From NCBI RefSeq assembly GCF_030542965.1, contig NZ_JAUAOA010000028.1, forward strand, positions 1 through 37,369: DNA of 37,369 nt. Reading direction: 5' to 3'. The position numbers and the translations under genes are program-made. The stretch is from Azotosporobacter soli. Lineage in GTDB: Bacteria > Bacillota > Negativicutes > SG130. Under the pieces are notes generated by a model. The model was not told the DNA's origin, ran no database searches, and was given only the letters and a program-made list of their open reading frames with translations. Numbering within the stretch: position 1 is the stretch's first letter; every line of letters starts with the position of its first letter. Of the stretch, positions 33,981 through 37,328 are shown in pieces.

Positions 33981-34010
33981 TTGACAATGTTACAGTGAAA
34001 ATGTTAAAAT
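33981..34010 (+). promoter_or_regulatory. Promoter of the SAM-riboswitch transcript
   Basis: A perfect TTGACA (33981-33986) and TAAAAT (34005-34010) are 18 bases apart, just before the riboswitch. Confidence 0.75.
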
Positions 34011-34036: not shown

Positions 34037-34140
34037 CTCTTATCAAGAGAGGTCGAGGGACTGGCCCGATGACACCCGGCAACCGGCAGCAATGCAGTGG
34101 TGCTAAATCCAGCAGAACGATAGGTTCTGGAAGATGAGAG
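34037..34140 (+). promoter_or_regulatory. SAM-I (S-box) riboswitch
   Basis: All hallmarks of the S-box are present: the P1 stem CTCTTATC (34037-34044) with GATGAGAG (34133-34140), the AGAGAGGTCGAGGGACTGGC block, CCCGATGACACCCGGCAACC, GGTGCTAAATCC and CAGAACGATAGGTTCTGGAAGATGAG. It binds S-adenosylmethionine. The 3' P1 strand and GAGGAAGG can pair with the CCTTTCCTC of the following terminator, giving the usual antiterminator. High SAM should switch the gene off. Confidence 0.96.
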
Positions 34141-34157
34141 GAAGGCAGATGAAAATC

Positions 34158-34188
34158 ACAGCCCTTTCCTCGGAAGGGGCTGTTTTTA
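34158..34188 (+). terminator. Terminator of the SAM riboswitch
   Basis: ACAGCCCTTTCC (34158-34169) pairs with GGAAGGGGCTGT (34172-34183, one G-U), followed by TTTTATTT. It is the expression platform of the S-box upstream of the 63-residue gene. Confidence 0.93.
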
Positions 34189-34227
34189 TTTGTGGAAAAG
34201 AGTGTTGCTGCCCGAAAGGGGTATCTA

Positions 34228-34419
34228 ATGAAAAAGAATGTAACCGATATTCGTAATTTACCTGGCGGCGAGGAAGAGGTCGTGATTGTGATTCGCAATG
34301 GCTGTGTGGTTCACTTTTCACAGCGTAAAGTGGAAAAGAATGCTGCCGAATGGTGGAAGGAAGAATGTCTTAGCGTGTCTGCGCCGCTCTTGCAGCGTAC
34401 GGCGGAGGCGGCCCGTTGA
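34228..34419 (+). CDS. 63-residue orphan protein under SAM riboswitch control
   Basis: The ATG at 34228 (MKKNVTDIRN) follows AAAGGGG at six bases. The frame continues upstream to 34192 but that part abuts the terminator. The product is small and soluble, with a predicted beta pair (EEEVVIVIRNGCVVHF), a Lys-rich turn (SQRKVEK), a Trp pair (EWWKEE) and a helical Ala-rich end. It has a single CxxC-free cysteine pair (Cys30 and Cys46) and no signal peptide. I do not recognise a family. It is the only gene between the S-box and the next promoter, so it belongs to the SAM/methionine regulon by position. Confidence 0.7.
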   Translation: MKKNVTDIRNLPGGEEEVVIVIRNGCVVHFSQRKVEKNAAEWWKEECLSVSAPLLQRTAEAAR

Positions 34420-34473: not shown

Positions 34474-34490
34474 TTTATTTAGCAAATAAA
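34474..34490. repeat. Palindrome between the hcp promoter and start
   Basis: TTTATTT-AGC-AAATAAA is a perfect 7-bp inverted repeat placed just downstream of the predicted transcription start and just before the AGGGGGCGGA ribosome binding site, a typical repressor position. Confidence 0.4.
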
Positions 34491-34503: not shown

Positions 34504-35802
34504 ATGTTTTGTTATCAATGTGAACAAACTGCCGGAGGGACGGGCTGTACAAAAGTCGGTGTTTGCGGCAAGAATGAAGACATTGCCAGCTTGCAGGACA
34601 CGTTGCTTTTCGGGCTCAAAGGGATTGCCGCTTATGCGCATCATGCCCGGGAGCTGGGCGCAAAAGATGATCAGGTTGACGCGTTTGCGCATGATGCATT
34701 GTTTTTTACCCTGACTAATGTGAATTTTAATTTGAACCGACATATTGAAATGGTTTTGAAATGCGGTGCGATGAATCTTCGCGCGATGGAAATGCTGGAT
34801 AAGGCGCATCTGGCTCGATTCGGCAGTCCGGTTCCGGTCAAAGTCTTTACCGGAACAAAGGCAGGGGCGGGAATACTGGTGACCGGTCATGATCTGCTGG
34901 ACTTGGAGGAACTGCTTAAACAGACCGAGGGCAGCGGCATCAATATTTATACGCATGGTGAAATGTTGCCGGCTCATTCCTATCCGGCGCTTAATAAGTA
35001 TCCGCATCTCGTGGGCAATTACGGTACTGCATGGCAGAATCAGCGCAAAGAGTTCGCTGCGTTTAGCGGTCCGATTCTTGTCACGACAAACTGCGTGATG
35101 CCGCCACTGGAGAATTGCTCTTATCAGGAACGTATTTTTACACGCAGCGTGACAGGCGTACAAGCCGATGACGCACGTCATTTGACGGAAAGAGATTTTA
35201 GCGCCGTTATCAGCGCTGCAAAAAGTTTGCCGCCGTTGGCGGAAGTGAGCGGTGACTATATGCTGCCGACCGGACATCATCACAGCGTCATTTTGAGTCT
35301 GGCGGATAAAATTGTTGCAGCGGTCAAAGCCGGTAAGATTCGCCGCTTTTTCCTGGTCGGCGGTTGTGATGGAGCTAAGCCGGGGCGTAACTATTATACG
35401 GAATTGGCGCAGCAAATACCGAAAGACTGTATTATTCTTACGGTTGCCTGCGGGAAGTTCCGTTTTAATCACCTTGAGTTCGGCGATATTGACGGCATTC
35501 CGCGTTTGCTTGACTTAGGGCAGTGCAACAATGCCTATTCAGGCATACAGGTGGCGTTGGCACTGGCTGAAGTTTTCAAATGTGGTGTGAACGAACTGCC
35601 GCTGTCGATGATTTTGTCCTGGTATGAACAAAAAGCAGTGGCGATCTTACTCACGCTCTTGCATCTTGGCGTGAAGGATATTCGGATCGGACCGACGCCG
35701 CCGGCATTCTTGACGGCGAATGTGTTCAAAGTTTTGCAAGACAATTTCAATTTGAAATTAATTACAACGCCGGCAGAAGATTTGAAAGCGATTTTAGGCT
35801 AA
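34504..35802 (+). CDS. hcp: Hybrid cluster protein, short (class III) form
   Basis: The 432-residue protein carries a 4Fe cluster at the N-terminus (C3, C6, C15, C21; MFCYQCEQT...GVCGK) and ligands of the hybrid Fe-S-O cluster in TTNCVMP, GGCDGAKPGR, ACGKFRF and GQCNNAYSG. Hcp reduces nitric oxide and hydroxylamine and responds to nitrosative stress. Class I and II proteins are about 550 residues; this one lacks part of the N-terminal helical region, as the class III type of anaerobes does. No Hcr-type reductase is adjacent. A terminator follows. Confidence 0.93.
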   Translation: MFCYQCEQTAGGTGCTKVGVCGKNEDIASLQDTLLFGLKGIAAYAHHARELGAKDDQVDAFAHDALFFTLTNVNFNLNRHIEMVLKCGAMNLRAMEMLDKAHLARFGSPVPVKVFTGTKAGAGILVTGHDLLDLEELLKQTEGSGINIYTHGEMLPAHSYPALNKYPHLVGNYGTAWQNQRKEFAAFSGPILVTTNCVMPPLENCSYQERIFTRSVTGVQADDARHLTERDFSAVISAAKSLPPLAEVSGDYMLPTGHHHSVILSLADKIVAAVKAGKIRRFFLVGGCDGAKPGRNYYTELAQQIPKDCIILTVACGKFRFNHLEFGDIDGIPRLLDLGQCNNAYSGIQVALALAEVFKCGVNELPLSMILSWYEQKAVAILLTLLHLGVKDIRIGPTPPAFLTANVFKVLQDNFNLKLITTPAEDLKAILG

Positions 35803-36734: not shown

Positions 36735-36757
36735 AACCACGCGCTAGGCGTGTGGTT
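36735..36757 (+). repeat. Left-end hairpin of the IS200-type element
   Basis: AACCACGCGC pairs with GCGTGTGGTT (one G-T pair) around a TAG loop. Such imperfect subterminal hairpins are what the Y1 transposase recognises. Confidence 0.75.
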
Positions 36758-36792
36758 CCGGAAAGCTTATAGCTATAAGTAGAAAAGAAAAG

Positions 36793-36847
36793 CCTCCTTT
36801 GCTAGAATAAATGCAGGTTTGCCGACCGCATAAACTAACAAAGGAGG
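36793..36847 (+). promoter_or_regulatory. Hairpin that can bury the tnpA ribosome binding site
   Basis: CCTCCTTTG (36793-36801) pairs perfectly with CAAAGGAGG (36839-36847); TAG/CTA extends the stem after one mismatch. The second arm holds the GGAGG site of tnpA. IS200 is known to limit its own transposase this way, together with an antisense RNA. Confidence 0.8.
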
Positions 36848-36857
36848 AGTATCCAAA

Positions 36858-37328
36858 ATGGATAACAGCAGTTTAGCACACACAAAATGGAAATGCAAAT
36901 ACCATATAGTTTTCGCACCGAAATACAGAAGACAAATCATATATGGGAAAATAAAAAGTGATATCGGAGTTATACTGAGAAAGCTATGCGAACATAAAGG
37001 TGTTGAAATTATAGAAGCAAGTGCTTGCCCGGATCACGTTCACATGTTGGTAAGCATACCGCCGAAAATAAGCGTGTCAAGTTTTGTGGGGTATCTAAAA
37101 GGAAAGAGTTCATTAATGATATTTGATAGGCATGCGAACTTGAAATATCGATATGGCAATCGACAGTTTTGGTGTAAAGGATACTATGTAGATACAGTAG
37201 GTCGAAATAAAAAAGCAATTGAAGAGTATATCAAAAATCAGTTAAAAGACGATGTGATCGCCGAGCAACTTACTTTGAAAGAGCTAGTTGACCCGTTCAC
37301 GGGTGAGCCAGCAAAAAAGTCGAAATAA
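36858..37328 (+). CDS. tnpA: IS200-family Y1 transposase TnpA
   Basis: The 156-residue protein is a complete HUH single-strand transposase. The metal-binding HVH is at 60-62 (CPDHVHMLV) and the catalytic tyrosine is Tyr124 in EEYIKNQ. The first strand KCKYHIVFAPKYRR and the GYLKGKSS segment are typical. The start is ATG at 36858, ten bases after GGAGG, whose site lies in a hairpin arm. The frame is intact, so the element may be active. Confidence 0.95.
   Translation: MDNSSLAHTKWKCKYHIVFAPKYRRQIIYGKIKSDIGVILRKLCEHKGVEIIEASACPDHVHMLVSIPPKISVSSFVGYLKGKSSLMIFDRHANLKYRYGNRQFWCKGYYVDTVGRNKKAIEEYIKNQLKDDVIAEQLTLKELVDPFTGEPAKKSK

Follow-up and report, generated by a model that had tools for sequence, protein, structure and literature searches.

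The locus analysed here is, judged from its sequence, a stand-alone SAM-I transcription-termination riboswitch ahead of a small-protein gene. It lies in the window (the whole stretch of 37,369 nucleotides that was analysed, contig 28 of a source genome of 3.78 Mb in 39 contigs). By profile comparison the small protein is a member of a one-hairpin family that had no name before and is encoded behind this type of switch in eleven bacterial families. We regard the identity of the SAM switch and the membership of the small gene in the S-box regulon as nearly certain.

Table 1. Features of the riboswitch locus and its downstream neighbor (window coordinates).
Feature	Coordinates	Strand	Basis
Sigma-A type promoter TTGACA-N18-TAAAAT	33981..34010	+	11/12 consensus positions, TG before -10
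SAM-I (S-box) riboswitch aptamer	34037..34140	+	RF00162, 93.2 bits, E 2.7e-21
Antiterminator helix	34138..34170	+	Fold of nascent stretch, -13.0 kcal/mol
Intrinsic terminator, 11-pair stem and U tract	34158..34191	+	Folding and terminator search
63-codon gene, small one-hairpin protein, tail-less variant	34228..34419	+	ORF, leave-one-out profile, homologues behind S-boxes
hcp (hydroxylamine reductase), downstream neighbor	34504..35802	+	NCBIfam

The Riboswitch and the Small Gene

The earlier note on this DNA had described a complete S-box with promoter, antiterminator and terminator, and all of these elements were recovered (Table 1). The aptamer matched RF00162 over its full length (model positions 1-108), far above the gathering score of 44.4 bits, and was the top scorer among the six S-boxes of the genome. 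Promoter-like sites were more frequent in the region than in shuffled sequences (5 observed against 0.9). The 11 pairs of the terminator stem span 34158-34183 and are directly followed by TTTTATTT, and the folding minimum (-62.9 kcal/mol) combined P1 with the terminator. The alternative helix is formed by GAGGAAGGC, made up of the 3' strand of P1 with the bases that follow, which pairs with GCCC..TTTCCTC; its energy of -13.0 kcal/mol applies to a fold with P1 blocked and the 3' arm of the terminator not yet made. As this antiterminator uses both the 5' arm of the terminator and the 3' side of P1, it excludes both of these structures, and the element thus combines RF00162 membership with mutually exclusive antiterminator and terminator helices.

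The five other S-boxes of the genome precede a metI-like PLP gene, an aminotransferase gene, metN, metY and metK (named by eye, except for the metI-type gene). The S-box regulon of the host is therefore an ordinary one, and the small gene is its sixth member.

The small ORF starts with ATG, is preceded by the Shine-Dalgarno-like AAAGGGG, and encodes a 63-residue protein with the core EEEVVIVIRNGCVVHFSQR. The hairpin core is intact, the C-terminal third is unrelated, and the protein ends in RTAEAAR, carrying neither GDGI nor another isoleucine tail. The AlphaFold model was of low confidence (pLDDT 59), too low to serve as a query in structure searches. A BRX hit (E 0.015) was rejected, as it remained under the BRX cut-off, and the idea of a ThiS-like sulfur carrier was discarded because a Gly-Gly terminus and a conserved cysteine are absent. 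Neither the 63 residues nor their family matched an entry in Pfam, NCBIfam or the PDB. To this extent the protein is the orphan that had been assumed, but it does have a conserved family of its own, very probably related to YezD/OscA (DUF2292).

A Small-Protein Family Behind S-Boxes

A search of 100 relatives with the 63-residue sequence as query found short ORFs in several families, with 42-60% identity over 25-33 residues, and a SAM-I riboswitch lay upstream of each of them, close by in all cases except G063, where it was farther away. The family was then assembled by searching 300 genomes of the class with a profile and inspecting the loci, the contexts being read from one genome per species. 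In total, small members with their surroundings read came from 19 genomes in 11 families of a single class, the Negativicutes. Their alignment (A2) defines the family, and the profile was built from 18 relatives, leaving out the window protein. This profile recovered the left-out protein with an E value of 1.8e-8 (Z = 100,000) and 36.6 bits, while 2,000 shuffles of the same protein reached at most 10.5 bits.

With S-boxes verified against Rfam, a SAM-I hit was found upstream of 18 of the 19 members, within 1.4 kb in 17 and at 2 kb in one, the sole member without an S-box being that of G041. Excluding the window, the count is 17 of 18. The distance from aptamer core to reading frame was 54-218 nt in 13 members and 570-1967 nt, in operons, in another five. 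Given about six S-boxes per genome, the chance of a gene lying within 1.4 kb downstream of one is about 0.1%. Values of dN/dS ranged from 0.02 to 0.41 in 15 pairs of relatives, indicating that the reading frame is a real protein in the relatives. Members without a tail recurred in other families and had values of 0.02-0.28.

In named genomes, a scan with the single sequence found no relative, and a profile scan found only three, giving names to three of the members, those of Sporomusa ovata, S. malonica and Sporomusa sp. KB1. Sporomusa belongs to the Negativicutes, which identifies the class of the small family. When the search was widened to the phylum (398 genomes), small members turned up in this class only. 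Profile matches of 320-360 aa were rejected as chance similarities; they lack an S-box and are by eye 2-hydroxyacyl-CoA dehydratase activators (SKIIIIRNGVVTDF). One gyrase-like match, also lacking an S-box, was dismissed likewise.

The proposal that the small gene is a new member of the S-box regulon is thus strongly supported. The profile search and context check that had been suggested placed homologues behind S-boxes, with many near met or cys genes.

Relation to YezD/OscA

The core of the small family, predicted from sequence, is one beta-hairpin (EEIIIIIRxGxVVxF), and 11 of the 19 members close with [LV]E[GC]xxGDGI or a near variant of it. Domain 2 of the tandem YezD proteins of the class has this hairpin too, with almost equal spacing to an LEGxxGDGI ending. 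Comparing the small family with DUF2292 by hhalign gave 97.5% with the tail and 85.7% without it; the best of 40 column shuffles reached 9.3% and the reversed profile 3.2%. A relationship between the two families is therefore very likely. In view of the profile comparison and the shared spacing from hairpin to tail, the most fitting view of the small family is that of a shortened branch of DUF2292. The window protein itself gave no match above cut-off to PF10055 or NF033785, nor to a home-made DUF2292 profile (6.7 bits), and its predicted link to DUF2292 runs via the small family.

The host genome encodes two tandem YezD proteins, one directly after cysK (ending GVYGEGI) and one after the S-box-controlled metI (ending GLDGEGI). 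The nearest NCBIfam name for the host YezD, although below cut-off, is OscA, a sulfur starvation response protein. In Pseudomonas, OscA is listed alongside sulfate and sulfonate uptake genes. In the literature searched, DUF2292, YezD and COG5583 received only one passing mention, and no mechanism was found.

The G[DE]GI Tail and CysK

Of the YezD ORFs in 60 loci of the class, 48 carry the terminal domain, and every one of these ended in G[DE]GI; the eight other YezD ORFs were separate first domains ending in EKIRL or similar. The G[DE]GI motif closed 11 of the 19 small ORFs, against a single case in the 15,698 other ORFs that this DNA contains. In the window copy and the members of seven other genomes the hairpin was kept and the tail was absent. 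A cysK gene was located within 1.5 kb and on the same strand for 20 of the 48 tail-bearing YezD ORFs, and an S-box, scored in these operons from its sequence pattern, lay no more than 4 kb upstream for 22. The host CysK beside YezD is isoform A (TIGR01139, 452 bits against a cut-off of 351), the CysM models remaining below their cut-offs.

In E. coli, CysE ends in FEYGDGI (PMC6829319), its C-terminal isoleucine enters the active site of CysK, and this last residue is critical (PMC5562914); other partners of CysK usually end in isoleucine as well (PMC4961446). By analogy, CysK may be the partner of the G[DE]GI tail, a step to which we give slightly less than an even chance. The host CysE ends in VEQLEGELKK, and none of 29 further CysE proteins of the class carried a GDGI-like tail, one of them ending in ...NKSI. 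A strict complementarity between CysE and YezD tails was not supported; G016, for example, has no YezD and still a tail-less CysE. In two genomes of 6-7 Mb from one family (f57; L224 and L226), CysE ended in YIGDYEI and YezD was tail-less; few of the CysE proteins read had such an isoleucine-ended tail.

YezD proteins from outside the class mostly ended at or soon after the EKxR part and had no tail, and tandem YezD proteins ended in GDGI or GEGI in three genomes. Since tail-less YezD is the rule there, the superfamily must have a basic function other than the tail.

Proposed Mechanism and Alternatives

The explanation that we favor overall, and which in our estimate is evenly poised between right and wrong, is that of a SAM-switched, YezD-related hairpin protein acting in a CysK-directed sulfide module. 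The SAM-I class of switch is established. From the anatomy of the leader, the antiterminator would form at low SAM and allow transcription of the small gene, and the protein would be made only when S-adenosylmethionine is scarce. Tail-bearing relatives and YezD paralogues would sit in CysK in the manner of E. coli CysE, leaving sulfide for O-acetylhomoserine sulfhydrylase (metY), whose gene is often found in the same operons. For the class as a whole, the YezD proteins and the S-box-driven hairpin relatives could be trans-acting mimics of the CysE tail that plug CysK and channel sulfide into homocysteine in place of cysteine, while forms without the tail tune the module; we offer this general form tentatively and think it somewhat more apt to fail than to hold.

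As the window protein lacks the GDGI tail, the CysK step is not directly transferable to it. Instead of plugging CysK, it would contribute to this module as a partner or competitor that has no tail; its hairpin might pair with the host's two tandem YezD proteins, both of which end in GEGI. The absence of the tail makes the exact role of the window copy the weakest step, and we hold the role proposed here to be doubtful.

The neighborhoods of the small genes bear on a different reading, namely that under S-box control the protein assists an enzyme of sulfur transfer or methionine metabolism (a LarE-type sulfurtransferase, or MetI, MetC or MetY) and not CysK, its hairpin serving for binding and the GDGI ending being otherwise used. 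Frequent neighbors were metI/metC/metY/metX, larE or cysK: larE directly followed the small gene in four genomes and was nearby in others, metI/metC/metY/metX were neighbors in five, and in G048 MoeB/ThiF- and TusA-like genes followed. Such a role would also accommodate the members without a tail. However, no single neighbor was constant across the loci, and CysK is the well-documented partner of GDGI and is encoded near a good part of the tail-bearing YezD genes, so that we consider an accessory of this kind rather unlikely.

Several individual loci deserve mention in their own right. At L081 (5823-8394), an S-box and a small GDGI protein are followed by MoeB/ThiF-like, sulfite-reductase-like and TusA-like genes, possibly a sulfur-relay operon under SAM control. 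In Sporomusa (L080, L082, and L083) the small S-box gene lies beside genes for 2-oxoacid ferredoxin oxidoreductase-like and DJ-1-like proteins and not beside sulfur genes. Genomes of one family carry a tandem pair of S-boxes with one small ORF per S-box (L087, 5828-6452; also L008, L010, and L011); the first ORF (EEHVLVFLSDGSVV...) encodes a more divergent hairpin protein, and metI- and metC-type genes come after. The member without an S-box (L076, 6528-6788) ends in LEGVNGDGI, lies upstream of metY- and metI-type genes and adjoins a RuBisCO-like gene, perhaps of the methionine-salvage type. At L005 (1764-2283), two glycine riboswitch aptamers adjoin the metY locus that carries an S-box.

The window copy could also be a decaying or lineage-specific remnant, SAM-switched and perhaps translated, with no important function. 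Its missing tail and unrelated C-terminal third, the odd neighbor hcp, and the two full tandem YezD proteins kept by the genome are consistent with decay. Yet the hairpin core is intact, the riboswitch scores best in the genome, and tail-less members in other families show low dN/dS, which together make a remnant improbable.

On the downstream side, 84 bases separate the small gene from hcp, for which an own promoter and palindrome had been proposed in the earlier note. The palindrome is present (17 bases, TTTATTTAGCAAATAAA, at 34474-34490) and is possibly an operator, but the promoter is weak, with two matches at 9/12, which is chance level, and the separateness of hcp is not established. No terminator on the + strand was found in the gap, so that read-through into hcp is possible. 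In the other loci examined hcp was not seen beside the small gene; this gene arrangement is thus local, and the switch probably does not exist for its sake. After hcp come DUF190-like and crcB-like genes (by eye) and an IS200-type transposase. Within the contig no methionine gene follows hcp, so that read-through to a known methionine gene, named earlier as a case against the proposal, has no target there. A riboswitch serving mainly hcp and later genes, with the small ORF as a leader peptide or by-product, would fit the unterminated gap and the chance-level promoter matches, but is very improbable, as the amino acid sequence of the ORF is conserved across families, its S-box linkage recurs without hcp, and hcp and later genes are not methionine genes. 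Further downstream, positions 36735-36844 matched Rfam STnc490 (58.9 bits against a cut-off of 56) directly before the IS200/IS605-type transposase ORF (36858-37328); an sRNA is a less likely source of this match than the terminal hairpin of the insertion sequence.

If the tail-mimic reading is true, DUF2292/OscA would gain its first mechanism, and cysteine and methionine would come under a new layer of control. A further kind of cysteine synthase control would then stand beside the CysE-CysK and CymR-CysK complexes. YezD/DUF2292 is widespread and tied to sulfur starvation, its members in this class near-universally end in the motif with which CysE plugs CysK, and the small S-box family would add proteins dependent on SAM status to the YezD/CysK circuit.

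Comparison With Known Systems

Like the S-box regulon of Gram-positives, the locus uses a standard SAM-I aptamer with a transcription terminator and antiterminator; it differs in that the controlled gene is no known biosynthesis or transport gene and encodes a small non-enzyme of a family unnamed in the collections searched. With YezD/OscA (PF10055; NF033785) the family shares small size, the hairpin [ILV]x[ILV]xIxxGxVVxx and the link to sulfur genes, here also to S-boxes, and many small members have the LEGxxGDGI carboxy terminus in common with the second domain of tandem YezD. Unlike YezD/OscA, it has neither the N-terminal helix part nor the EKxR signature and stays below detection by both models, and the window copy is in addition without the tail. 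The last residues GDGI are identical to those of the CysE tail in most relatives and in nearly all YezD proteins of the class, whereas the small family and YezD have no acetyltransferase domain, the window copy has no tail, and CysK binding is only predicted. CymR-CysK of Bacillus subtilis is a precedent for CysK having a regulatory partner in the sulfur network of a Gram-positive (PMC4961446), with the difference that CymR is a DNA-binding repressor and the small protein shows no such domain.
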